A stretch of 64,000 bases of DNA from Shinella sp. CPCC 101442 (GTDB taxonomy: Bacteria; Pseudomonadota; Alphaproteobacteria; Rhizobiales; Rhizobiaceae). The notes under the pieces are model-generated. The model made no database searches and was not told the origin of the DNA. It saw only the letters and a list, made by a program, of their open reading frames with translations. Position numbers and translations under genes: made by a program. The stretch is taken from assembly GCF_024704725.1 (NCBI RefSeq), contig NZ_JALIQS010000007.1:62001-126000 (forward strand). Direction: 5' to 3'. How positions within the stretch are numbered: the stretch's first letter is position 1; each line of letters starts with the position of its first letter. Below, piece by piece: positions 6,651-29,425 of this stretch.

Positions 6651-8228
6651 CTATTCCGTCTGGCCGAAGGCGATGCGCATGCTGCGCTGGGTGCCAGCGC
6701 CGATATCGCCGTCGATGGTGCCCTTGTAGAACTTGTTGCGGCTGAGTTCGGCCTGAAGCGCCCGGCGCGTTTCAGGTTTGAACATGGTCGGCCGCGTCGA
6801 GAGCTGCTGGAGAACGTCGTCGACGCCAGAGCGTAATGCCTGGTAGAGATAGCTGGCTGCGTCCTGCGGGGTCTTGCCCGGCACCAGCCCGTCATCGATG
6901 AGGGCCGCGACGTTGAACATCGCTTGGGGATGGCGCAGGTCCGCGGCGCGGATGAAAAGCCCGACGGCCTTCTTCGGATCGCGCGGCAAGCCTTCAGCCC
7001 CCTGGTAATAGAGGAAGCCGAGGTCGTTGATCGCATCGGCGAAGCCGAGATCGGCGGCGCGCTGGTAGAATTTGATCGCTTCCGGCACGTTCTGTGCCGT
7101 GCCGATCCCCTTTTCGTGGAGCTTGCCGAGTTCGAACATTGCCTCCGCGTCGCCGGCATCGGCGGCCTTGCGGAAGAACGCGAGGGCTTTCTCCGGCTGG
7201 AATTTCTCCCTATCGGGCGTCAGTGCCATGTAGGCAAGGCCGAGCAGGGCGCGCGTATTGCCCTCTTCGGCAAGGGCGGCGAGTTGCACTTCCTGCTCGG
7301 GTTTCAGTGCCTGCCATTGCGAGGCCTTGTCTGCCATATCGGCGACGGCGGCATCCCCGCCGGCAAGGAAATAGGGTGCGCCGGACAGGGAGCCGTAAAA
7401 GTGCGGCTGCTGGCGGTTGGCGGTGAGCGACATCACGCGGTCGCGCACCTGGCGGAAGACCAGGCCGATCTCGACATTCGGCCGGGGCAGGCTTTCGAGG
7501 ATGGCAGTGGCGAACGGACTGTGCTCGCCATCGCCATCGAGCGCCACCTTGCCACCCTCGGCCGCATAGATCACCAACATGCCCTGCGAAGGATCGGGTG
7601 CCACAAGTCCGTCACCGCTGAGCTTTGCGCCGTCGGCCGCGATCGCGCCGGCAAGCGCGGGGAAGGGGTTGTTGCGGCAGGAATCGAGAATGACGATGCG
7701 CAGTTTTCGCGCCCGCTCGACGCTGCGCAGGACGGACGTGAGGCTAATGGCCTGCGCCGGGATCGTGGCTGGGTCGTCGACCTTGATATCGACGGGCACG
7801 AGATAGTTTTCACCCGCGGCCTCCACACCATGGCCGGCGTAGTAGACGAGGGCGATATCCGCAGTCTCCACCTTGCGCGAGAAGGCGTCGACGGTCTCCC
7901 GCATCTGGATGAGGGGGATGTCGATAGCAAGATCCACCGTGAAGCCAAGGCGCTGCAGCATGTCGGCAACGGCGCGCGCGTCGGAGGCGGTATTCTTCAA
8001 AGGCGAGATTGACGTATAGGCGGACATGCCGACAACAAGCGCCATGCGCTTGAACGATGCGGCGGGCACCGTCAGCGTATCGCCGGCGGTGATCTTTTCC
8101 ACCTCCGTCTTGATGCCCATCAGGCCGCGCGTCTGGCCGCCGGCAGAGGCCGAATCCTGCGCGGCGGCGCTGCCGGCCGAAAGCAGCACCGTCAGGATAA
8201 GGAAGATGCCCAGTCTCGAGGGAAGCAT
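6651..8228 (-). CDS. Secreted caspase-fold protein with Sel1 repeats and C-terminal peptidoglycan-binding-like segment
   Basis: The 525-residue product has a signal peptide at residues 1-24. A Peptidase_C14 domain spans about 65-310, with the catalytic dyad visible as YYAGHG (His133) and ILDSCRNNPF (Cys184). Three Sel1-like repeats follow at about 345-450 (RKAADAGDAEAMFELGKLHE, QRAADLGFADAINDLGFLY and a third). The end (RRALQAELSRNKFYKGTIDG) resembles a PGBD-type peptidoglycan-binding helix pair. I use the ATG at 8228 (AGGGG five bases upstream) over a GTG at 8249. Bacterial caspase homologues of this kind cleave after Arg/Lys in characterised cases; the substrate here is unknown. It is divergent from tpiA and upstream of 6013-6621. 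Confidence 0.85.
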   Translation of the reverse strand: MLPSRLGIFLILTVLLSAGSAAAQDSASAGGQTRGLMGIKTEVEKITAGDTLTVPAASFKRMALVVGMSAYTSISPLKNTASDARAVADMLQRLGFTVDLAIDIPLIQMRETVDAFSRKVETADIALVYYAGHGVEAAGENYLVPVDIKVDDPATIPAQAISLTSVLRSVERARKLRIVILDSCRNNPFPALAGAIAADGAKLSGDGLVAPDPSQGMLVIYAAEGGKVALDGDGEHSPFATAILESLPRPNVEIGLVFRQVRDRVMSLTANRQQPHFYGSLSGAPYFLAGGDAAVADMADKASQWQALKPEQEVQLAALAEEGNTRALLGLAYMALTPDREKFQPEKALAFFRKAADAGDAEAMFELGKLHEKGIGTAQNVPEAIKFYQRAADLGFADAINDLGFLYYQGAEGLPRDPKKAVGLFIRAADLRHPQAMFNVAALIDDGLVPGKTPQDAASYLYQALRSGVDDVLQQLSTRPTMFKPETRRALQAELSRNKFYKGTIDGDIGAGTQRSMRIAFGQTE

Positions 8229-8385
8229 ATGCCCCTTCGCCTTCCTCACACGCAGATCGCGGTATCAGCTGTCACGGATCAGATCCCATGAATATTCGGA
8301 TTCGCGCGGTCACATGCCGGCTTTTCTTGGGGGCTTCGATTTGCTACGCCGCAAGCCGAGAAAAGTTCAGGGATAGGGAGGCCTC

Positions 8386-16911: not shown

Positions 16912-18828
16912 TCAAAGAATGAGGTCGGTCGCATCCAGGCTGGCTTTGGTGAACTGCTTCAGGATGAGGACGTCCACGCTGGACAGGCGGATTTCGAGAT
17001 CGGCGCCCACCTGCACGGCCTTGCTGAGAACGGAGCTCGCTGACGAAAAATTATAGGACTGGAGATCGATGTCATCGACATTGTTCTGGAAGTCGGTGAT
17101 CGTGTCGCGTCCGTAGCCGCTTGCAAAAACGAAGATGTCGCCGGCACTCCCGCCGGTCAGCGTGTCGTTGCCTGTGTAACCGGCAATCCTGTTCAAGCCT
17201 GCATTGCCTATCAGTTTGTCGCCAAAGGCGCTGCCGAAAAGGTTTTCAATCGAGGAATACGTGTCACCGCTCGCCTCGTTGGTATTGACGCCGGCATTTG
17301 CCAGGCTTGCCGTTACACCTATCGTCGCCAGCGAATAGTTCGCCGTGTCGGTGCCGAAACCACCGATCAGTGTGTCGCCGCCTGTACCGCCATTCAGCGT
17401 ATCGTTTCCTGTTCCGCCATCAAGGGTATCCGCGCCGTCACCGCCCCTGAGATTGTTATCTCCGGTACTACCGACCAGTCTGTCCACGAAGTTGGTACCC
17501 GTGAGGTTCTCAATGGACGAATAGGTGTCGGCCGCAGCGTCGTTGGTATTGCTGGAGGGTGTGGCAAGATTGGCGACTACACCCTTCGTGGCATTTGAAT
17601 ACGACGCGGTATCCGTGCCGGCGCCACCGATCAAGGTGTCCGCCGCCGCCCCCCCGAGCAACGTGTCGTTGCCATTGCCCCCGTCGAGCTGATCTGCACC
17701 CGCGCCCCCGTTAAGGGTATCGTTGCCATCAAGGCCGAAAAGTGCATCTGCGCCGTTATTGCCGGAGATGCTGTTGACAGCCTGGTTACCACGGATCGTG
17801 TCGTTGCCGCTGCCGCCCGTTGCGTTTTCGATGAGCGAGCGAAGATCGCCCTTGAAGAGCAGCGCGTTGAAAATGTTACCACGCGCGAAACCGCCATTTG
17901 GTCCACCGCTGAGATAGGCGAGCTGTGCGGCGTCAAAGACGGAGTGTTCCCCTGGGCGGAGATCGATTTTGACACCGTTTGTATAGGCGCTGAGATCGTA
18001 GGTATCATTGCCGCCTCCGTCCCAGAGCGTCGCGAAAATGCGATTTTCACCAGGGGCGATGGCGAGTTCGCCATTGACGAGCGTATCGCCGCTGCCCGGT
18101 GTCCATTTGTAGACGGTGGCGCCGGAATTGGTGGAGTAGTCGGCGCCGTACATGTGCTGGAGAGCCGCGATATCGGCCATCATAAATGTCTGCGGCGCAC
18201 CGAATTCTTCATAGGAGTAGTAACCGTTTGTGTCGCCGATATAGGTCCGATAGCTCATGACCGTGAATTCGATGCTGTTGGTAGCATCGGGCATTTTGCC
18301 GTAGACGAGATCCTCCTGCGCATGCTTGAGGCCCAGAGCATGCCCTAGCTCGTGGATCAGCGTGTGCCAGGCGTAGTTACCGGCCACCGGTTTGCGCAGA
18401 TCATAGATCGTGCCCGCATCGGCAGTTCCGAACCAGATATCGCCGTCGTCGGCACTATCGCTATTGATGACATTGCCGGGAAAATCGGCAACTTCCGCCG
18501 TGCCTGGCACGCTGGACTGCGCAAAGCGAAATGTTGCGTTGGTCGAATTTCCCACGGTGAAGTTTAGATTTGTAAATCCTTCAACAGAAAAACCATCGTT
18601 TGCTTTCCCACCGAAGGACGTTTCCATTGCGAAGAGGGCGGTGTTCTTTTGCGCGTAGGAAATAGTGCTGAAGCCGCTATTGTATTTCGAATAGCTGTAA
18701 TCGGTTACCACTGTGGGGAAGGCGTATGTAACCGTGGACGCGCTCCAGCCCTTTCCGACAAGGAGTGAATCGACAAAGATTGAACCCGTAGCATTGATGT
18801 TTTTTGTAGTCGTTGCTGAACCCGACAT
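16912..18828 (-). CDS. Serralysin-type M10 metalloprotease with RTX repeats
   Basis: The 638-residue product has no Sec signal peptide. A zinc-protease domain carries HELGHALGLKH at about residues 159-169 and the Met-turn MSYRTY near 191. The second half is RTX beta-roll: many GGxGxDxLx nonapeptides (GGSGNDTIRG, GLDGNDTLNG, GGNGNDTLLG). They are arranged as two related modules, each opening GTDTA(S/N)YS and containing DTYSSIENL. The C-terminus (DATDLIL) suits a type I secretion signal. Such proteases are exported by an ABC/HlyD/TolC machine and fold on extracellular Ca2+. No secretion genes lie nearby. The ATG at 18828 is chosen for the upstream GGAGGG; the frame runs to 18858. Confidence 0.9.
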   Translation of the reverse strand: MSGSATTTKNINATGSIFVDSLLVGKGWSASTVTYAFPTVVTDYSYSKYNSGFSTISYAQKNTALFAMETSFGGKANDGFSVEGFTNLNFTVGNSTNATFRFAQSSVPGTAEVADFPGNVINSDSADDGDIWFGTADAGTIYDLRKPVAGNYAWHTLIHELGHALGLKHAQEDLVYGKMPDATNSIEFTVMSYRTYIGDTNGYYSYEEFGAPQTFMMADIAALQHMYGADYSTNSGATVYKWTPGSGDTLVNGELAIAPGENRIFATLWDGGGNDTYDLSAYTNGVKIDLRPGEHSVFDAAQLAYLSGGPNGGFARGNIFNALLFKGDLRSLIENATGGSGNDTIRGNQAVNSISGNNGADALFGLDGNDTLNGGAGADQLDGGNGNDTLLGGAAADTLIGGAGTDTASYSNATKGVVANLATPSSNTNDAAADTYSSIENLTGTNFVDRLVGSTGDNNLRGGDGADTLDGGTGNDTLNGGTGGDTLIGGFGTDTANYSLATIGVTASLANAGVNTNEASGDTYSSIENLFGSAFGDKLIGNAGLNRIAGYTGNDTLTGGSAGDIFVFASGYGRDTITDFQNNVDDIDLQSYNFSSASSVLSKAVQVGADLEIRLSSVDVLILKQFTKASLDATDLIL

Positions 18829-18946
18829 GTTTCCCTCCGGATTTTGGCTGGGCGCCACTGGTGACGCAAAGAGAGCGGCTTCCCAAAAAATGCCTCAGTA
18901 CCAATACACTATCACGGCAACCACCTCTAAGACGCGCGGGATCGCT

Positions 18947-19453: not shown

Positions 19454-20713
19454 TTGACTGCGGGTTCCATCGTCGCGACACTTCTGATCGTCTTTGCTGG
19501 CCTTCTGGCCGTGCCGGCCGTCAGCCATACCAATGCGGGCACGACTTTTTCGCTGATGGCCTCGTCCATGGCCTTCGTCGCCATGGGGATCGCGCAATTC
19601 ATGGCAACGCGCCCGCCCTTCGTCGAAAGGCTTTTCGGCGGGCTCGACCGCATCTATCAATTCCACCGCAAGATCGGCATTGCCGTCCTCTGTCTTATCC
19701 TCTTCCATTATTTCGTTGCGCCGGATTTCCAGGGCCTTTCGGTGACGAGCGGTCTCAATCAGCTCGCCAAGACGATGGGGGAGTGGGCGTTCTACGGTTT
19801 CGTCTTCCTGCTCGTCTTGAGCCTTGTGAAGGTCATTCCGAAGACGCGCTTTCAGGTTCCTTACCAATACTGGCGTATCACGCACCGCTTCATCGGCCTG
19901 CTCTTCGTGCTTGTCGCCTTCCATCAGATGTTCATCAAGCGGCCCTATGACGGCACGGCGTTTCTGGCGACCTATCTCAACATTTTCGCTCTGATCGGCA
20001 TCGTGAGCTATGCCTATACGCAGCTGCTGCCGTGGCTGCGCACACGCCGCTACGAGGTGGTGAATGTCGAGCGGCACGATGGCGCGACCATCATTTCGGC
20101 GCGGCCGATCAACCGCAAGCTCAGGGCGATGCCCGGCCAGTTCGGTTTCTTCCGGGTCAACAAGCCGGGCCTGCGCGAGCCGCATCCCTTTACCATTGCC
20201 GGTATCGAGGACGATGGTTCGGTTCGCTTCGCAATCAAGCCGCTCGGCGACTACACGAAAGCGTTGCGTGAGGGCGTGGCGGTCGGCGATGCGCTGACGC
20301 TTGAAGGCGGCTATGGCCATTTCAATCACAAGCGCGGCGGCAAGAAGCAGATCTGGCTTGCCGGCGGCATCGGCGTCACGCCGTTCCTCGCCATGGCGAG
20401 CCGGCTGAAGGGCGACGAGGGGCAGGACATCCACATGGTCTACTGCGTGCGCGACAGCGCCGAGGCGATCGGCCTCGACACGTTTCGCACCCAGGCGGAA
20501 AAACTTGGGAATTTCAGCTTCGTTCTGCACAACTCGACGACCGATGGGCGTTTCGATGCCTCGAAGCTTGTCGCGGGTACCAGCATGAACCCGGCCGAAG
20601 CCGACCTGTGGTTTTGTGGTCCGCCGCCTTTGCGGCTGGCCATCGAAAAGGGACTGAGGGAGCTCGGCAAGGCGCCGCAGCGCGTGGAGTTCGAGCGTTT
20701 CGAATTTCGCTAG
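19454..20713 (+). CDS. Ferric-reductase-like flavocytochrome
   Basis: The 419-residue product combines an N-terminal membrane domain of about six helices with a ferredoxin-NADP reductase-type C-terminus. The membrane part has the paired His expected for haem ligands (YQFHRKIG, LILFHYF, ITHRFIG, VAFHQMF). The reductase part has an FAD-binding EPHPFTIAG and an NAD-binding LAGGIGVTPFLAMAS, ending near WFCGPPPLR. It should move electrons from NAD(P)H across the inner membrane. The start is a TTG preceded by GGGGG six bases upstream; no ATG fits. It lies about 120 bases before the cytochrome gene at 20833, separated by a repeat. Confidence 0.8.
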   Translation: MTAGSIVATLLIVFAGLLAVPAVSHTNAGTTFSLMASSMAFVAMGIAQFMATRPPFVERLFGGLDRIYQFHRKIGIAVLCLILFHYFVAPDFQGLSVTSGLNQLAKTMGEWAFYGFVFLLVLSLVKVIPKTRFQVPYQYWRITHRFIGLLFVLVAFHQMFIKRPYDGTAFLATYLNIFALIGIVSYAYTQLLPWLRTRRYEVVNVERHDGATIISARPINRKLRAMPGQFGFFRVNKPGLREPHPFTIAGIEDDGSVRFAIKPLGDYTKALREGVAVGDALTLEGGYGHFNHKRGGKKQIWLAGGIGVTPFLAMASRLKGDEGQDIHMVYCVRDSAEAIGLDTFRTQAEKLGNFSFVLHNSTTDGRFDASKLVAGTSMNPAEADLWFCGPPPLRLAIEKGLRELGKAPQRVEFERFEFR

Positions 20714-20749
20714 AGCAGGCCCTGCATAGAATTGCGTGAATGAAATCGG

Positions 20750-20832: not shown

Positions 20833-23800
20833 ATGCGCGTGTTCAAGACATCACTTCTGCGACCGGTTTCCCGCTTTGCAGCGGCGCTCGGTCTGACCAT
20901 GGCGGTGTTCTGTCCCGCCGGCGCGTTCGCAATCGACCAGTTCGCAGCCGATGCCTACGGCACCTACCAGGCGAATGCGGACAACGGCAAGATCCTGTTC
21001 GGCGCGGCCGGCTGTGGCGCCTGTCATGGCTCGGGCGACAACATGGAACTGCTGTCCGGCGGCATGGAAATGCAGACGGCGATCGGCAAATTCTTCGCGC
21101 CGAACATTTCGGCCCATCCGAACGGCATCGGCGGCTGGTCCAATGCGGACTTCCTGAATGCCGTGATGGTGGGTCTCAAGAAGGACGGCGACAACCTCTA
21201 CCCGGTCATGCCCTACACGTCCTATGGCGGCATGAAGCCGGAGGACGTGCTTGATATCAAAGCCTATATCGAGACGCTGCCGCAGACGGATGCCGCGTCG
21301 AAGGAACACGAGATCGCCTTCCCCTTCAGCCGCCAGACGACGATCACGCTCTGGAAGCGCAGCCATTTCACCGTGCAGGCCTATCAGCCGCGCGAGGAAA
21401 CGCAGATGGAGCGCGGCCGCTACCTCGTGGAAAATGTTGGTGGCTGCGGCGATTGCCACACCCCGCGCACCACGACCTACGGCCTCGATCTTGCCCGTGC
21501 CTATGAGGGCGAGAAGGGCCTGACCGGCGCGGTGGCGCCCGATATTACCAAGGCACGCATGGCCGGCCTTGCTTCACATGAAGTCTTTACCAAGGGCCTG
21601 ATCGAAGAGAGCAAGAAGCTCTCCGGTTCTCCGCTCTCCGATCCTGTCATGCGTCGCATCGCACAGGGCCTTTCCGCTCTGTCGGACGAGGACAAGCAGG
21701 CCATGTACGCGTTCCTTTCCGACCGTGAAGTGAAGGTGATCCCGGTCGAGACCAGCACGGCGCCGGTCTGCAGCGAGGCGACTGCCGAAAGCGCGCTGAA
21801 CGTCGGCGGCGGCAATGCCGAGCTTGCCTCCGCAGCCGATGCCTTCATCGGCAAATATTGCCGCAACTGCCATGGCCCGGGTGAGAGCTCGCAGGGCTCC
21901 TTCCCGTCGGGAGACCTTGCCTCGATTGCCGCAAACCCGGCCTTCGTGACCCCCGGAGATGCCTCCAAGTCGCTGCTCTACACCAGTGTCACCAGCGGCC
22001 GCATGCCGCTCGGCAAGCGCCCGGCCGACGCAGAGGTGCAAGGCCTTGCGGACTGGATCAACTCGCTCAACCAGGCGGAGATTCCGACAGCGGTTTCAGC
22101 CACCAAGGTGAAGCGCTCACGCCCGATGCTGAAATATCTCGATTTTGTCGAACTCGCGCTGCAGGACGTCTCCAAGGTCGACGAGCACGACCAGCCCTTC
22201 ATGCGTTATTTCAGCTATCGCGACCAATATAACGGCATGATGAGTTGCGAGACGCACGAAACCTTCCTGAAGCGCATGAAGGTCCTCGCCGGTGGTTTCA
22301 AGAAGCTCTTGAACTCGCTGTCCTATGGGCCGGAACTCGTCCTTCCCGAGGAAGTGGAAGGCTCCGACGGCCTGCTCGTTCGTGTCGATCTGCGCGACCT
22401 CGAATGGAGCCAGGAAGACTACGACTTCCTGATCAACGAGTATTTCTATGGCGTCGAGCCGGCAAGCAATGCTCAGTTGCACGCCCTTGCCAAGGCGACG
22501 CAGAGCCAGCTTCCGATCATGCGTGTCGACTGGTTCATGAGCAACGGCGCCCGGCCGAAGGTCTATAACCGCCTCATGAAGCTGCCGACCAATATCATCG
22601 AGTTGGAGACGCGCTTCGGGGTGAACGTCAACCAGAACATCGAACGCCGCCGCATCGTGCGCGCCGGTTTCGCCGATGGTTCCTCCGGCGTTTCCGATCA
22701 CAACCGCATGCTCGAACGGCACGACATGCCCTTCGGCGGCTACTACTGGAAGTCCTATGACTTTGCAGGCGACCTTGGCCGCCAGGTCCTGAAGCGCTTT
22801 CCCGCAGGTCCCGATGGTGTCAAGCTGAAGGCCGGCCTGGAACCCTTCGAACACGACGGCGGTGAAATGATCTTCTCGCTTCCGAACGGCATGCAGGGCT
22901 ACTACCTGTCGACCAACAAGGGCGACCAGCTCGACATCGGCCCGACGGCGATCGTCTCCTTCCGCAAGCGGCCGATCGGCAAGGGGGTCGAGATCATCAA
23001 CGCACGCTCCTGCTTCGATTGCCATTTCGACGGCATTCTCTCCAAGCGGGACCAGCTGCGCGAGCATATCGAAACATCCACGCTGTTCTCCAAGGATCAG
23101 CAGGACGAGCTGCTCGCCGTCTACGTGCCGCAGGAGGAACTGAACGAGGTCTACAAGCGCGACACCGACCGTTTCGTCGGCGCACTCGATCGCCTCGGCA
23201 TCACGGAAGCGACGGCCGGCGGCGGCAAGACGGGCCTGAAAGCGCCCGGCGGCGCTGAGATCTTCACCTACTTCGCCGACCAGTATGAGGACGAGTTGAA
23301 TTTCGAGCAGCTGGCGGCCGAGTTCGACATGACGCCGGAAGAGTTTTCGTCCGACATCCGTCGCCTTACCGACGTCAATGCCCTGCGCATCGGCCTCGAC
23401 TGGGTTGCGACACTGGAAGCCGGCGCCACGATCCCGCGCACCGAGGTGGAGGAACAATATGCCTTCATGTTGCAGCCGCTCGTACAGCTTGACCCGTTGA
23501 AGCGCGGCGTCAACGCGGACGCCGCTGCCGTGCAATCGTCGCAGGGTCAGGTGGCGAATACGGACCAGCATGCCACCCAGACCAATACCGACACGGCCTA
23601 TGTCGCGCCCGCCTATAAGCAGGAAGACAAGGCGCAAGCAGATAAGGTGAAGCTGGCGCTGCGCGTGCCGACGACCAGTGCAAAGGTCGGCGACTACCTC
23701 AGTTTCGAGCTCAGTACGAACCACAGCTGCGAACTGCAGGTGATGTATGTCGAAGACACCGGCAATGTCGAAATCATCCCGGACGTGATGATCGGCAACA

Positions 23801-24069
23801 CGATGCTGAATGCCGGCGAAAGCCGCCTTATTCCGCAGCCGGGTTCTGGTAACCTGACCTTCGATTCGCCGTCGCCCGGTGAAACGATGATCGCCCTTTG
23901 CCGCATCGGCGGGCTCGGCGACCAGAAGATGACGGCGGAAAAGGCCAAGCAGCTGGTGGCATCCTCCAAGCTGCCGCCGACACGCGGTCTGGCGGTCGAC
24001 CTCGCCAGACAGGCCGAGCAGGACAATGGCGCGAGCGGTCTCCAGATGGTGACGTTCGAAATCAAGTGA
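20833..24069 (+). CDS. Secreted tetra-CxxCH cytochrome c with C-terminal DUF4384-like domain
   Basis: The 1078-residue product starts with a signal peptide (LGLTMAVFCPAGAFA) and carries four CxxCH haem motifs: CGACH at 61, CGDCH at 205, CRNCH at 343 and CFDCH at 727. The first two lie in mono-haem cytochrome c domains, the third in a PSD1-like domain. The fourth sits in a large module (about 435-760) of a kind also seen in cytochrome-like proteins of planctomycetes. The C-terminus (about 965-1065; VGDYLSFELSTNHSCELQVM) fits DUF4384. It should be periplasmic and needs c-type maturation. The ATG at 20833 is chosen for the signal peptide and the upstream GAAGGGA. It heads the caspase cluster. 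Confidence 0.82.
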   Translation: MRVFKTSLLRPVSRFAAALGLTMAVFCPAGAFAIDQFAADAYGTYQANADNGKILFGAAGCGACHGSGDNMELLSGGMEMQTAIGKFFAPNISAHPNGIGGWSNADFLNAVMVGLKKDGDNLYPVMPYTSYGGMKPEDVLDIKAYIETLPQTDAASKEHEIAFPFSRQTTITLWKRSHFTVQAYQPREETQMERGRYLVENVGGCGDCHTPRTTTYGLDLARAYEGEKGLTGAVAPDITKARMAGLASHEVFTKGLIEESKKLSGSPLSDPVMRRIAQGLSALSDEDKQAMYAFLSDREVKVIPVETSTAPVCSEATAESALNVGGGNAELASAADAFIGKYCRNCHGPGESSQGSFPSGDLASIAANPAFVTPGDASKSLLYTSVTSGRMPLGKRPADAEVQGLADWINSLNQAEIPTAVSATKVKRSRPMLKYLDFVELALQDVSKVDEHDQPFMRYFSYRDQYNGMMSCETHETFLKRMKVLAGGFKKLLNSLSYGPELVLPEEVEGSDGLLVRVDLRDLEWSQEDYDFLINEYFYGVEPASNAQLHALAKATQSQLPIMRVDWFMSNGARPKVYNRLMKLPTNIIELETRFGVNVNQNIERRRIVRAGFADGSSGVSDHNRMLERHDMPFGGYYWKSYDFAGDLGRQVLKRFPAGPDGVKLKAGLEPFEHDGGEMIFSLPNGMQGYYLSTNKGDQLDIGPTAIVSFRKRPIGKGVEIINARSCFDCHFDGILSKRDQLREHIETSTLFSKDQQDELLAVYVPQEELNEVYKRDTDRFVGALDRLGITEATAGGGKTGLKAPGGAEIFTYFADQYEDELNFEQLAAEFDMTPEEFSSDIRRLTDVNALRIGLDWVATLEAGATIPRTEVEEQYAFMLQPLVQLDPLKRGVNADAAAVQSSQGQVANTDQHATQTNTDTAYVAPAYKQEDKAQADKVKLALRVPTTSAKVGDYLSFELSTNHSCELQVMYVEDTGNVEIIPDVMIGNTMLNAGESRLIPQPGSGNLTFDSPSPGETMIALCRIGGLGDQKMTAEKAKQLVASSKLPPTRGLAVDLARQAEQDNGASGLQMVTFEIK

Positions 24070-24070
24070 C

Positions 24071-24110
24071 AACAGGGGCAGGGGCCTGCGGTCCCCTGCC
24101 TGTTCGTTTC
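24071..24110 (+). terminator. Hairpin between the cytochrome and OmpA genes
   Basis: ACAGGGGCAGGGG - CCTGCGGT - CCCCTGCCTGT forms a strong stem with a two-base bulge, followed by TCGTTTC. It begins just after the cytochrome stop. It could end most transcripts or act as an attenuator or 3' end protector inside an operon. Confidence 0.6.
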
Positions 24111-24136
24111 AAGAGTATACGAGGGCTGGACCGACA

Positions 24137-25132
24137 ATGCTGATGCGATCTCTGGAGCATTTCCGCTTTTCCTTGAAACGCGAAAGCGCTCCATCCGTTT
24201 GTTTTGGTGCGGCTTCCGGCGCAAAAAAGCTTTGCTCTCTCGCTGGGACGGCCTTGGCGGCGACGCTCTTCGTATTGGCTGGCGCGGCACCGGCCGCCGC
24301 GGCTTGCGACGCCTTTACCGGTGTCATCGAGGCGTTCAATGCGGGTGACGAGCAGAAGGCCCAATCCTTCGCCGAAGCCGCGGGCACCGCCAATTGCAGC
24401 GCCGACGAGCGCACGCTGGTCGGCCGTGTGGCCGCGCTCACCACCTTCAACCGCATTGCCACCGCGGTTGGAAATGGCGGCAGGCTTGCCGACCATCAGG
24501 CGGATCTTGAAATGCTCCAGAAGAAGTTCGGCGGTCCCTGGCAGGTCTTCGATGCGTTGGGCGATCTCGCCCGCGAGCGCAAGGACTATGAGGAAGCGGC
24601 CAAGCTCTACCAGATCGCCCTGGAGGACGGCTCCAACACGACGCTGACACCGGACTGGATGGCGCCCGACGAGCAATATATCCTTCGCCTGGATCGGCTT
24701 GCCGGCGAAATGCGCCTTGCGGCACCTCGTCCCGTCAAGCTCGCCATGCGCGGCGGCTGCAAGATCTCCTTCCGCGGTGTGAAGATCAAGAAGAAGTCGA
24801 CACCGGTGCGCTATGTCTTCGGCACGGCCGATTTCACGCCCGAAGGTGTCGAGGCCGCAAAAGACCTGGCGGAATGCCTGAGGGCGGTCAAACCCGCCGC
24901 GATCAAGCTGATCGGCCATACCGACCCGGTCGGCTCGACATATGCAAACTACAAGCTGTCGCTCGCCCGCGCCGATACGCTGAAGACCTATCTCTACGAT
25001 GCCGGCTATGCGGGCACGGTCACGACGATCGGCAAGGGTGAAGACGAGCCCTTCAAGCCGGACGATGCCAGCGCCTATGACACGGACACCCTGAACCAGC
25101 TGAACCGCCGCGTGGAGGTGGACGTGCAATGA
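24137..25132 (+). CDS. Exported OmpA-family protein
   Basis: The 331-residue product has a hydrophobic signal core (ALAATLFVLAGAAPAAAA) at about 38-56. A helical TPR-like region (about 60-190; DALGDLARERKDYEEAAKLYQ) follows, then a C-terminal OmpA/MotB domain (about 225-331) with IKLIGHTDPVGSTYANYKLS and LNRRVEV. The OmpA domain normally binds diaminopimelate in peptidoglycan. The n-region is unusually long because residues about 5-18 are encoded by a dispersed repeat (24156-24189). The stop overlaps the next start (ATGA), so it is translationally coupled to the first caspase gene. There is no beta-barrel. Confidence 0.82.
   Translation: MLMRSLEHFRFSLKRESAPSVCFGAASGAKKLCSLAGTALAATLFVLAGAAPAAAACDAFTGVIEAFNAGDEQKAQSFAEAAGTANCSADERTLVGRVAALTTFNRIATAVGNGGRLADHQADLEMLQKKFGGPWQVFDALGDLARERKDYEEAAKLYQIALEDGSNTTLTPDWMAPDEQYILRLDRLAGEMRLAAPRPVKLAMRGGCKISFRGVKIKKKSTPVRYVFGTADFTPEGVEAAKDLAECLRAVKPAAIKLIGHTDPVGSTYANYKLSLARADTLKTYLYDAGYAGTVTTIGKGEDEPFKPDDASAYDTDTLNQLNRRVEVDVQ
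24156..24189 (-). repeat. Dispersed repeat, copy B, inside the OmpA gene
   Basis: The reverse complement matches 20750-20783 at 29 of 34 positions. It lies inside the first 18 codons of the OmpA-family gene and is inverted relative to copy A. The two copies bracket the cytochrome c gene. Confidence 0.65.
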
Positions 25133-26697
25133 GAACGCTGCTGCCCCGTCTGCTGGCGCTTACGCTCTCGGCCGCTTTTCCGCTGCCTGCCCTCGCGGCG
25201 CAAACCTATGCGCTCGTCGTGGGCGTGGATCAGTACCCGAACGATGTCAGTCTTGACGGCGCCGTGCGCGATGCCGAGGATGTCTATAGGTCGATGAATG
25301 CCGCCGGCTTCAAGGCGAGGAAGTTCACCAATGCGGAGGCCCGCAAGGACGATATTCGCAAGGCCTGGACGGACATGGTGGCCGAAGCGGCTTCCGGCGA
25401 TACGATCATCTTCACCTATGCCGGCCACGGTGCACAGATGCCGGAGCTTATCGAGGGCGACGAAGCCGACGGGCTCGACGAGTTCCTCCAGTTGCCGGGT
25501 TTCGACCGCAACCGCTACGAGGAAACGTCGAGGGAGATCATCGTCGACAATGAGATGAATGCCTGGTTTGCGGAAGCCGAAGGCAAGGGCGTGCATGTGC
25601 TCTTCGTGTCCGACAGCTGCTTTTCCGGCGGCATGAGCCGTTCGATCAAGGGAAAGTCGCGGCTGGCGCCCGCCGTGACGGTCAAACTCGCACCACCTTC
25701 GCAGGAAGCGCTGTCTGGCGCGGACCTCAAGGAGATCAATTTCAAGCAGGTGACGGTGCTTGCCGCCTCGCTGGAAAGCCAGCCGACGCCGGAGGTCATC
25801 ATCGACGGCGAGCCGCGCGGCGCGCTCAGCTGGAGCTTTGCCCGCGCCGTGGAAGGCAGCGCCGACCGCGACGGCAACGGCATCATCACGCGCATCGAGC
25901 TTGAAGACTATATCTTCAGCAATGTGAAGAACCGTTCCGAGGCGTTGCAGGTGCCGAACTTCATGCCACAGGTGGCCCGCTCGGAGAGCGAGGTCGTCGT
26001 GACGCTGACACGCGGCATTCCGGTCGCCACCGGTGACACCACGACAACGACGAATGACGCCGGCACGACGCCGAAAACCATAAAGACCGTCCGGGACCTT
26101 GGCTGGACGGGCAATATCGCCCTGCAGATCGACGGCCAAGCCGATCGGCCGAACAGTGCTGACGGCGCTGGTACGCCCTTCCGGTGGGATGTGGCGGCCG
26201 GCACCTTCTATACGCCCAACGGCGATGTCGCGGCGGAAAATGTCGGCCCGGAGCGTATCCAGTCGGTCGTCGATAAATACGTGCTGCTCGATTTCCTCAA
26301 AGCGATGGCAAGCCAGAATCCCGGCACCGTCTCGCTGACGCCGGTGAAGGATATCTATGCCGCCGGCCAGCGCCTGCGTTTCGACGCACCGCCCGGCCGG
26401 TATCCGAACATGCTGGTCTTCAACCTTGCCAATACCGGCGAGGTGCAGTTCCTCGACATGCAGGCCGCGGGCACGAACAGCTCGGAATTCAAGCTGACGG
26501 ATGTCGAGATCGTCAAACCCTTCGGTGCCGACCACCTCATCACGATCTGGACCGGCGAGCCGGTCGACGCCATCGGCGCCGTGCTTTCCGACAAGAACGT
26601 GACGGCCGCCGCCTTGTTGCAGGCGCTCTCGACGCGGCTCGATGGCAAGGAGGCGAGCGTGGCCATCCAACCTCTCTATACGCGGGAAACGCTCTGA
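25129..26697 (+). CDS. Secreted caspase-fold protease with EF-hand
   Basis: The 522-residue product has a signal peptide (residues 1-24) and a Peptidase_C14 domain from about 26. The dyad is His100 (TYAGHG) and Cys164 (VSDSCFSGG). A canonical 12-residue EF-hand loop lies at 246-257: DRDGNGIITRIE, with D1, D3, N5, G6 and E12 all present. The remaining 260 residues form a second domain with no motif I recognise. It starts within the OmpA stop (ATGA) and ends TGATG into the next caspase gene, so the three are one translational unit. Known bacterial metacaspases need Ca2+ and cut after basic residues; that specificity is only inferred here. Confidence 0.85.
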   Translation: MRTLLPRLLALTLSAAFPLPALAAQTYALVVGVDQYPNDVSLDGAVRDAEDVYRSMNAAGFKARKFTNAEARKDDIRKAWTDMVAEAASGDTIIFTYAGHGAQMPELIEGDEADGLDEFLQLPGFDRNRYEETSREIIVDNEMNAWFAEAEGKGVHVLFVSDSCFSGGMSRSIKGKSRLAPAVTVKLAPPSQEALSGADLKEINFKQVTVLAASLESQPTPEVIIDGEPRGALSWSFARAVEGSADRDGNGIITRIELEDYIFSNVKNRSEALQVPNFMPQVARSESEVVVTLTRGIPVATGDTTTTTNDAGTTPKTIKTVRDLGWTGNIALQIDGQADRPNSADGAGTPFRWDVAAGTFYTPNGDVAAENVGPERIQSVVDKYVLLDFLKAMASQNPGTVSLTPVKDIYAAGQRLRFDAPPGRYPNMLVFNLANTGEVQFLDMQAAGTNSSEFKLTDVEIVKPFGADHLITIWTGEPVDAIGAVLSDKNVTAAALLQALSTRLDGKEASVAIQPLYTRETL

Positions 26698-28226
26698 TGA
26701 TCCGTTACGCCGCAGCACTGCTCCTTTCCCTCTCCCTGTTTTCCGCGGTCGAGGCCGCCGACCGGGCGCTCCTCGTCGGCATCGGCACCTATGCGTCGCT
26801 GCCTGAAAAGATGTTCCTCGAAGGGCCGAAGAACGACGTCCCTCTCATCGAGAAACTCCTGAAGGAAAAGCAGGGCTATGCGGCCGATTCGATCCGCGTG
26901 CTGCTCGACAAGGATGCGAGCCGCGCCGCCATTCTCGCCAGCATCGACGAATGGCTGATCAAGGGCACACAGCCGGGTGATCGGGTCTATTTCTACTTCT
27001 CCGGCCACGGTTTGCAGGTGAAGGATGCCAGTGGCGATGAAGAGGACGGCCTCGACGAGGCGCTTTCGACCTATGATATCGCTGCCGGCGACGGTGACTG
27101 GACGAATGTCATTCTCGACGACGAAATCGACGCGATGCTCGAACAGTTGAAGGGCCGCGCCGTCTCCATCGTCGTCGATGCCTGCCACTCCGGCACCATC
27201 TCGCGTTCTCTTTCCACCAAGGTGGCCGATGTGATGGAGAGCGCGCGCTTCCTGCCTCGGCCGTTCGCCAAGCCGGTGGAGGCGGTGAAAATGCGCGGTC
27301 TGCGCATCGATGTCGCTGTGGTGGACAAGCCCGAGATCGTCAAGCAGAACGGCGTGGAAGCCTGGAGTGCCGCCTCGTCCTACCAGGTCGCCTGGGACGA
27401 CACGCGCCTGCCGCCGGAAGAGCGCCACGGCGTCTTCACGCTCTCCTATGTCAACGGCCACGAGATTTCCGCTGCCGACAGCAACGGTAACGGCATCGTC
27501 TCGAATGCCGAGCTTCTGGAATATGTGAAGAAGCAATCACAGGCCTATTGCGCCGGCCAGACCCAATGCCAGGGCCTCGATCCGCAGCTCGAGGTGAACT
27601 ACGCGCTGCTCGGTGCCGCCGCCGTGACTCCGGCAGCGGGCGACACGACCAGCGGCGACACGCAGCAGCAGAGTACGGACTACGGCAAGGTCGAGCAGGT
27701 CAAGGTCGAGAACACCCAGCAGACGGCCTATGTCGCGGCGGATCCGGTGGATGCGGTCAGCGATATCCTCGGCAAGCCGCAGACCGGCGATGTGCAAGTC
27801 TCGCTCTCTTCCGACCACCTGAAAACCGGCGACCCCTTCCGCATCACGGTGGCAAGCAGCACCGGTGGGCACCTCATCCTCTACGACGTCGACAAGGACG
27901 GCAAGGCGACGCAGATATTCCCGAACGAGGCGGCGAAAAAGATCACTCCGCTCACCGCCAACACTCCGCTCACGATTCCGGATGACTATTACGGCTTCGA
28001 TTTTGAAGCCGACGGACCGAGTGAAAATGTTCTCGTCGCCATCGTCGTCGCCGACGATATCGACCTGACCAAGGTCGCGCCCAACGACTACGGCCTGCAG
28101 AAGGAACTCGACGCCCGCACCACCATCGCCGACATCGCCGGGACGCTGAAGCAAACCTGGACGCGTGATATGGAAAATCGCAGCGTGAACTGGTCGCTGG
28201 GGCTGCTGAAATACACGGTTTATTGA
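26697..28226 (+). CDS. Secreted caspase-fold protease with EF-hand and DUF4384-like domain
   Basis: The 509-residue product has a signal peptide (residues 1-20) and a Peptidase_C14 domain with His104 (YFSGHG) and Cys163 (VVDACHSG). A canonical EF-hand loop lies at 261-272 (DSNGNGIVSNAE). A Gln/Thr-rich linker at about 310-345 leads to a DUF4384-like domain (about 360-465; VQVSLSSDHLKTGDPFRITV, then HLILYDVDKDGKATQIFPN). The start overlaps the preceding stop (TGATG). It is the last gene of the cluster. It is paralogous in layout to the preceding protein, but the two share little sequence outside the core motifs, so this is not a recent tandem duplication. Confidence 0.87.
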   Translation: MIRYAAALLLSLSLFSAVEAADRALLVGIGTYASLPEKMFLEGPKNDVPLIEKLLKEKQGYAADSIRVLLDKDASRAAILASIDEWLIKGTQPGDRVYFYFSGHGLQVKDASGDEEDGLDEALSTYDIAAGDGDWTNVILDDEIDAMLEQLKGRAVSIVVDACHSGTISRSLSTKVADVMESARFLPRPFAKPVEAVKMRGLRIDVAVVDKPEIVKQNGVEAWSAASSYQVAWDDTRLPPEERHGVFTLSYVNGHEISAADSNGNGIVSNAELLEYVKKQSQAYCAGQTQCQGLDPQLEVNYALLGAAAVTPAAGDTTSGDTQQQSTDYGKVEQVKVENTQQTAYVAADPVDAVSDILGKPQTGDVQVSLSSDHLKTGDPFRITVASSTGGHLILYDVDKDGKATQIFPNEAAKKITPLTANTPLTIPDDYYGFDFEADGPSENVLVAIVVADDIDLTKVAPNDYGLQKELDARTTIADIAGTLKQTWTRDMENRSVNWSLGLLKYTVY

Positions 28227-28488: not shown

Positions 28489-28675
28489 AAGACGACCTCT
28501 CAGCCGATATGATGGCAGCACCTGCGAATGCGGGATTGTGTCCAAGACATTTCGCCGCGTTCTCCAAAAGGTGATTGGCAGGAGGGGGGCGGCGGGGCTA
28601 TCAGATGGCACCCACGGAGGGGGGCGGCCCGTGTTTGCCATCGGTCACCTCTTCAGGACGTCTCGGAGTAGCCCC

Positions 28676-29425
28676 TTGTCGATTGCCGATATTTCTCTTT
28701 GGAGTGCGCTTCTGGCGGGAGCGCTCTCGTTCCTTTCGCCCTGCGTGCTGCCGCTCGTGCCACCCTATCTCTGTTACATGGCGGGCATTTCGGTGGATCA
28801 GTTCCGCGGCGGGGAAGCGGCGGCGGTGCGGCGGGATACGCGCGGGGCGGTGCTGCTTGCGGCGTTCTTCTTCACGCTGGGCTTTGCGACCGTCTTCGTG
28901 GCGCTCGGGGCGGGGGCTTCAACCATCGGCATGGTGCTGCGGCGGCATCTCGACCTGCTCGCCCAGATCGGTGGCGTCATCATCATCCTGATGGGCCTGC
29001 ATTTTCTCGGGCTGCTGCGCATCGGGCTTTTCGCCCGTGAGGCGCGGTTCCAGGGCGGCGGCAAGCCCGCGACAGCGTCGGGCGCCTACATCATGGGCCT
29101 TGCCTTCGCCTTTGGCTGGACGCCGTGCATCGGGCCGGTGCTGGGGGCGATCCTGGGGATTGCCGCGGCGCGCGAGACGGTGGGCGACGGAGCGGCCCTG
29201 CTGGCCGTCTATTCGCTCGGCCTTGCGGTTCCGTTCTGGATCGCGGCCGGCTTTTCCGGGGCTTTCATGCGCTTCCTCGTGCGGTTCCGCCGCCATCTCG
29301 GCGCGGTGGAGAAGGTCATGGGGGTGCTGCTGATCCTCACCGGCCTCGCCTTCATTTTCGGTTACATCAGCGCCGTCGCCATCTGGTTCCAGCAAACGTT
29401 TCCCATTCTCTCGCAAATCGGCTAG
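28676..29425 (+). CDS. ccdA: CcdA/DsbD-family cytochrome c biogenesis membrane protein
   Basis: The 249-residue product has six predicted membrane helices and the two redox Cys of the family, in SFLSPCVLPLVPPY and GWTPCIGPVLG. CcdA moves electrons from cytoplasmic thioredoxin to periplasmic thiol proteins and is needed for haem attachment to c-type cytochromes. The frame is open from 28538, but the TTG at 28676 (SIADISLWSALLAGAL) matches the family start and has CGGAG eight bases upstream. It lies close to the multiheme cytochrome gene, though tRNA-Lys separates the two. Confidence 0.87.
   Translation: MSIADISLWSALLAGALSFLSPCVLPLVPPYLCYMAGISVDQFRGGEAAAVRRDTRGAVLLAAFFFTLGFATVFVALGAGASTIGMVLRRHLDLLAQIGGVIIILMGLHFLGLLRIGLFAREARFQGGGKPATASGAYIMGLAFAFGWTPCIGPVLGAILGIAAARETVGDGAALLAVYSLGLAVPFWIAAGFSGAFMRFLVRFRRHLGAVEKVMGVLLILTGLAFIFGYISAVAIWFQQTFPILSQIG

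Follow-up and report, generated by a model that had tools for sequence, protein, structure and literature searches.

A conserved five-gene cluster of Shinella sp. CPCC 101442 that may link an outward electron chain to a pair of caspase-fold proteins

The window studied here is a stretch of 64,000 nucleotides from the soil bacterium Shinella sp. CPCC 101442 (contig NZ_JALIQS010000007.1; C7:62001-126000), whose genome comprises 6.1 Mb in 29 contigs. Its + strand bears a cluster of genes for a NOX-type oxidoreductase, a tetrahaem c-type cytochrome, an OmpA-family protein and two caspase-fold proteins, called here cas1 and cas2. The first-pass annotation, made without database searches, had described a cluster of four genes; those four are real and linked, but the cluster has five, the NOX-type gene upstream having been overlooked. 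The gene identities, their linkage, a DUF4384 domain shared by the cytochrome and cas2, the conservation of catalytic dyads and EF loops and the retention of cas2 after loss of its dyad are established, and comparison across genomes suggests a conserved cell-envelope gene module of the Hyphomicrobiales (Rhizobiales). Our preferred reading, to which we assign a probability of about 0.38, is that an outward electron chain leads to a DUF4384 cytochrome, that this cytochrome docks to a caspase pair anchored at the wall, and that redox state switches cas1. Specifically, the inner-membrane NOX homologue would take electrons from cytoplasmic NAD(P)H and send them outward through its b haems, two in number, to a tetrahaem cytochrome c dedicated to receiving them in the periplasm. 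This cytochrome would dock by its DUF4384 to a calcium-loaded pair of caspase-fold proteins anchored by the OmpA protein, with cas1 as the protease and cas2 as partner or regulator, and its redox state would switch cas1, leading to cleavage of periplasmic substrates. The direction of electron flow, the docking, the redox gating and the proteolysis are what we infer.

The five genes and their products

The first gene is located at 19454..20713 (+), has a TTG start and encodes a transmembrane NAD(P)H oxidoreductase of 419 aa; it ends 119 bp before the cytochrome start. Pfam returned Ferric_reduct (3e-12), FAD_binding_8 (1e-5) and NAD_binding_1 (1e-5), all above cut-off. The best solved-structure matches (phmmer) were 8qt6 (E = 1e-40), which we take to be SpNOX, and 8qq7 (E = 2e-40). 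According to the available part of its description (PMC11031084), the latter is SpNOX, the NADPH oxidase of Streptococcus pneumoniae. Residues H71, H85, H144 and H157 align with H69, H83, H129 and H142 of SpNOX, with identical spacing within the pairs H71/H85 and H144/H157, which are the haem-ligand candidates. The accessible text of Hajjar et al. (2017; PMC5676040) reports that the four SpNOX histidines were mutated in pairs and that the enzyme can hand electrons straight to cytochrome c, and it proposes acceptors in the periplasm. Judged by its sequence, 19454..20713 is a bacterial NOX homologue and a member of the cluster, and this homologue is likely the electron source.

The cytochrome gene (20833..24069, +) encodes a protein of 1078 aa, and an alternative in-frame ATG at 20740 would extend it to 1109 aa. 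The four CxxCH motifs that had been read in it lie at residues 61, 205, 343 and 727. Pfam detected Cytochrom_C (3e-12), Cytochrome_CBB3 (1e-9) and, below the cut-off of 27, DUF4384 (2e-4, 21.8 bits); the AlphaFold model (m8bb61aec5116) has a mean pLDDT of 84.6. A three-haem part (residues 44-411; 20962..22065, +; CxxCH at 21013, 21445 and 21859) presents the sequence and fold of the three-c-haem cytochrome subunits of membrane-bound fructose/alcohol dehydrogenases. It is followed by a middle domain (residues 430-890; 22120..23502, +), in which Pfam gave nothing at E ≤ 0.1 and which has many invariant residues and its own, fourth haem motif (CFDCH, 23011-23025). The C-terminus is an Ig-like DUF4384 domain (residues 938-1078; 23644..24066, +). 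DUF4384 is common to the cytochrome and cas2, and this favours direct contact between them; it also occurs in the two split-type cytochromes scanned and in 120/120 of the relatives listed. The closest named cytochromes belong to Shinella, with 12 records whose best segments are 82-95% identical. As to spread on plasmids, 636 plasmid records matched; among the best 30 of the 636, a single one, from a Neorhizobium plasmid, spans 80% or more of the cytochrome (39.5% identity), and the other 29 cover 30-40%, in the N-terminal cytochrome part. Two loci (L068, L069) have second middle-domain copies without CxxCH, both preceded by a gene for a dihaem cytochrome, and the precomputed domains of one cytochrome relative (P0097) include a formylglycine-generating-enzyme-type domain (PF03781).

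The OmpA-family gene (24137..25132, +; 331 aa) starts after a gap of 67 bp. Its product was correctly taken to be a peptidoglycan-binding protein: PF00691 (24812-25126) scores 41.9 bits (1.3e-10) against a cut-off of 27.2, next to a TPR match below cut-off. All four open reading frames (ORFs) of the first-pass annotation are present on the + strand where it had placed them, and direct reading confirmed the junctions, with an ATGA overlap between the OmpA gene and cas1 (25129-25132) and a TGATG overlap between cas1 and cas2 (26695-26699). The signal peptides assigned to all four products are putative; by eye, each N-terminus is compatible with one, being hydrophobic and followed by a small-x-small site. 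In a comparison with L077, a close relative, the five genes have dN/dS values of 0.035-0.072, which, like the conserved neighbourhood described below, point to more than chance.

The two EF-hand caspases with intact His/Cys dyads are likewise borne out. The product of cas1 (25129..26697, +; 522 aa) contains Peptidase_C14 (4e-14), the dyad H100/C164, an EF-hand loop at 25864-25899 and a degenerate DUF4384-like C-terminus (26320-26694). The product of cas2 (26697..28226, +; 509 aa) contains Peptidase_C14 (6e-17), the dyad H104/C163, an EF-hand loop at 27477-27512 (20 bits in Pfam, below cut-off) and DUF4384 at 27819-28043 (2e-13). Both loops have 12 residues, at 246-257 and 261-272 of the respective proteins. 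Across relatives, an EF loop is present in 59/60 cas1/cas2 rows, the miss being a fragment, against 6/44 of the other caspase ORFs at the same loci. The two caspases are not equivalent, because the dyad of cas2 has been lost in several relatives and that of cas1 is kept in 30/30 complete rows. Specifically, cas2 keeps its dyad in 23/29 rows and is changed in six, in five of them at both residues, and one more changed cas2-like copy, in L112, lies outside the row set. The dead dyads of the cytochrome clusters read QS, ES, LG, RC and YC. In L090 and L112 the His is replaced by Arg and Tyr, respectively, with the Cys kept in both, and these look like losses separate from the double-dead lineage. 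For the one double-dead pair tested (L052/L054), dN/dS was low, at 0.18. The catalytic region of cas1 was poorly modelled (mean pLDDT 63.2), and an apparent match to the caspase-plus-Ig arrangement of MALT1 was not used, the TM-scores over both domains being low. In L080 and in G613 (L112) cas1 is split between frames, either by real decay or by sequencing error.

Conservation of the cluster

Homologues of the middle domain were found in 36/297 genomes of the order (E ≤ 1e-10) and 2/299 of the phylum (E ≤ 1e-6), the window's own genome being included in both counts; that genome set aside, the two samples together supplied 36 genomes and 38 loci (L038-L075). The first-pass annotation had proposed a search for conserved co-occurrence and named a cytochrome not conserved beside the caspases as its refutation; the search did not refute it, a caspase gene lying within 8 kb at 18/38 of these loci against 0.89 expected. 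The expectation derives from each genome's number of caspase matches (Pfam density) and the length of sequence covered at its loci; the nearby caspases were found with a profile built from 64 genes of the same loci, which is therefore not independent of them. In the family sample of 297 genomes the middle domain occurred in 29 and cas1 (E ≤ 1e-40) in 21, both counts belonging to the same draw, as judged from shared genome identifiers. Seventeen genomes had both, where 2.05 were expected (hypergeometric P = 1.4e-16, ignoring kinship), and at 17/17 of these close family loci the two lay on the same contig and strand, cas1 downstream, with the matches 1443-1830 nt apart. The cytochromes of the 12 family genomes without such a cas1 have at most 58% identity; 11 of these genomes were examined (G559 was left out), and nine carry a caspase-family gene near the cytochrome, with none in G759 and G703.

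The comparison of gene neighbourhoods covered 73 cytochrome loci (L038-L097 and L102-L114), with that of the window among them. This set is not random: 21 loci came from a search for close relatives and 13 were chosen, mostly as exceptions. Forty-five are of the tetrahaem type (L107 is cut by a contig end), or 43 distinct loci after removal of the duplicates L095/L103 and L097/L105. NOX is established directly upstream in 36/43 of them (38/45 with duplicates), a count that includes L040 and L042, where the stop-to-stop frame of the cytochrome overlaps the NOX gene and the NOX matches in G215 and G277 lie directly upstream. An OmpA gene is within 8 kb at 42/43 tetrahaem loci and a caspase at 35/43, of cas1 type in 26; 20/43 have a cas1 row together with a cas2 row, to which L112 adds its cas2-like copy.

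A second lineage (L052, L054, L058, L062, L064) presents, in this order, a dihaem cytochrome, cas1, cas2, a middle-domain cytochrome and OmpA. The cytochrome is split here and the cluster has no NOX, with OmpA and the caspase pair kept; cas2 has lost the dyad and kept the calcium loop. A small monohaem cytochrome gene comes first in four of the five loci and was not found in L058. Pfam assigned one such small cytochrome, beside the split-type cluster of L050, to cytochrome c', and the other small ones cluster with it. Across these loci the electron-supplying candidate genes vary, and the cytochrome, OmpA and the caspases stay together. A redox input can be argued because two different possible donors, NOX in one lineage and the dihaem cytochrome in the other, adjoin the same cytochrome-OmpA-caspase core.

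Three further genes of the window were annotated. The next one downstream (28538-29425, +) encodes a membrane domain of the DsbD/CcdA type for cytochrome c biogenesis, and its family (f19) adjoins the cluster in several Shinella loci and not in all Rhizobiaceae loci. At 16912-18858 (-) there is a serralysin-like M10 metalloprotease with RTX calcium repeats, of a family (f6) that recurs near the cluster, on the opposite strand, in many Rhizobiaceae loci. A third caspase-family gene (6651-8249, -) carries Peptidase_C14 and Sel1 repeats as well as a peptidoglycan-binding match that falls short of the cut-off; caspase-family matches in the whole host genome number five.

Weighing the possible functions

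The periplasmic module proposed by the first-pass annotation holds in so far as redox proteins, a peptidoglycan-binding protein and caspases form an apparently exported, conserved set, but the caspases are not equivalent and the coupling is not universal. Several observations weigh against redox switching of cas1 by a docked cytochrome. The DUF4384 match of cas1 is weak, and there is none against the cytochrome; the cas1-like proteins of L106 (in the cas1 clade) and of L113 and L114 (named by position) have no EF pattern, and four family genomes carry cas1 relatives (33-46% identity) without the cytochrome. A terminator-like hairpin lies between the cytochrome and OmpA genes, such matches, like the promoter matches at the cluster, being no commoner than in shuffled sequence. 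At 9/43 tetrahaem loci all nearby caspases belong to another subfamily (e.g., L039, L097), with an opposite-strand one in three. NOX is missing from seven tetrahaem loci, all from a single family (L043-L049), where no caspase lies nearby either; six of them have OmpA, and the seventh (L047) starts at a contig edge; their genomes have 3 to 10 caspases elsewhere and zero NOX matches at E ≤ 1e-20. L095, on a 14.8-kb contig, is also without a nearby caspase. Finally, the other 28 loci, with split or shorter cytochromes, have adjacent NOX in 0/28, OmpA in 13/28 and a caspase within 8 kb in 13/28, leaving 15/28 without one; several of these loci reach contig edges. A more specific proposal is that the cluster is a cytochrome-c-gated caspase system of Alphaproteobacteria, wherein the NOX-driven periplasmic multihaem cytochrome would control a caspase bound to calcium together with its partner, which in some relatives is a pseudocaspase, with OmpA as the wall anchor; we hold this to be doubtful.

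The other explanation that survives best, although we also find it unlikely, makes the cytochrome an enzyme of the periplasm, either a reductase or a peroxidase, with NOX or other cytochromes as its electron supply; the caspases would be redox-blind proteases for maturation or quality control of this envelope complex. The middle domain, rich in invariant residues and with a haem motif of its own, could be enzymatic, and the cytochrome persists without a caspase in the seven loci above, six of them with OmpA. MsrQ-MsrP, as presented in the accessible text of Hajjar et al. (2017; PMC5676040), offers a precedent in which a membrane protein resembling NOX supplies electrons to an enzyme of the periplasm. 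However, neither a substrate nor an active-site chemistry was identified for the cytochrome, and the retention of an EF-hand caspase together with a dead EF-hand partner is left unexplained; that such a partner is kept suggests signalling or scaffolding.

It is improbable, in our judgement, that the role of the NOX-cytochrome pair is to generate or scavenge reactive oxygen at the cell surface, with the caspases acting further down as effectors in oxidative or calcium stress, up to cell lysis, in a functional link without direct docking. The four proteins of the first-pass annotation look exported, and the cytochrome c' beside the L050 split-type cluster could bind NO. SpNOX itself makes superoxide, according to the available part of PMC5676040. 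The shared DUF4384, however, favours direct contact, and no stress regulator was identified at the cluster, its promoter matches being those already compared with shuffles. Least probable, in our view, is that a NOX-cytochrome unit and an OmpA-caspase unit travel together by chance without joint function: the halves do occur singly (cytochrome and OmpA without caspase in six of L043-L049, OmpA-caspase-caspase without cytochrome in L100 and L101) and the Rhizobiaceae loci are related, so that counts are not independent, but the linkage survives gene reordering and splitting of the cytochrome across several families, exceeds expectation at the 38 sampled loci and joins halves that share DUF4384.

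Comparison with known systems

The first-pass annotation knew of no named system with its four parts, and none was found in the literature search or in PADLOC-DB, within their scope. NOX, cytochrome and bacterial caspase were joined in no title or abstract opening among the matches listed, most subscription journals lying outside coverage. A role in anti-phage defence was rejected after a comparison of six proteins with PADLOC-DB 2.0.0, in which cas1, cas2 and the third caspase matched the generic caspase model only and NOX, the cytochrome and the OmpA protein had zero matches. According to the available part of PMC6710368, the NnrR regulon of Bradyrhizobium includes one caspase gene, which was not tied to the family considered here.

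Regarding bacterial caspases, the accessible text of Asplund-Samuelsson (2012; PMC3501461) describes OmpA in 14 metacaspase operons and multi-metacaspase operons in Alphaproteobacteria. Our cluster resembles these in its caspase domain, its OmpA neighbour and the presence of more than one caspase; the word cytochrome is absent from that text, whose operon section has no NOX or cytochrome operon. Pseudo-orthocaspases of Rhizobiales include, in the available text of Klemencic (2019; PMC6426788), a class with a trypsin domain, a Gln-Cys dyad and a C-terminal DUF4384, and there too the word cytochrome does not occur. L100 carries a trypsin-caspase-DUF4384 protein with a Gln-Cys dyad that matches this class exactly, beside a cas1-clade caspase and a DUF4384-bearing OmpA protein. 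The window cas2 differs from it, with H104/C163 intact and no trypsin domain, and thus does not show the dyad loss of a pseudo-orthocaspase; the dead cas2 dyads are those listed above.

Residues 44-411 of the cytochrome share three haem motifs and their fold with the fructose/alcohol dehydrogenase cytochrome subunits (7w2j, 8jej, 8gy2), to which the window protein adds a fourth-haem domain of ~460 residues and DUF4384. Classification as such a subunit was rejected: the fold fits, but Pfam detected no partner dehydrogenase among the six neighbouring genes scanned, the rest of the genome not having been searched, and the recurrent neighbours are NOX, OmpA and caspases. With SpNOX and bacterial NOX in general, the window NOX shares the fusion of a haem-binding membrane domain with FAD and NAD domains, the four-His spacing and an aligned C-terminal aromatic residue; it differs in that its gene adjoins one for a periplasmic tetrahaem cytochrome. 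MsrQ-MsrP is similar in that a NOX-like membrane haem protein feeds a periplasmic redox partner, whereas the partner in the window is a multihaem cytochrome beside caspases and not a molybdopterin enzyme; the words neighbor, operon and caspase are absent from the accessible text of that study (Hajjar et al., 2017; PMC5676040).

If electrons delivered by NOX to the cytochrome do control cas1, the cluster would be a functional parallel to the link between cytochrome c and caspases in animal apoptosis, within the class from which mitochondria are held to derive; homology to the apoptosis pathway as a whole is not claimed. A single cluster would make two questions testable, namely which acceptors bacterial NOX enzymes use and which function bacterial caspases have once exported. 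The cluster also offers a natural caspase pair, one member of which is dyad-less in several relatives, and a shared domain through which the pair could dock to the cytochrome. Each part has known relatives and the novelty lies in their assembly, whose joint function we infer from gene linkage and shared domains.

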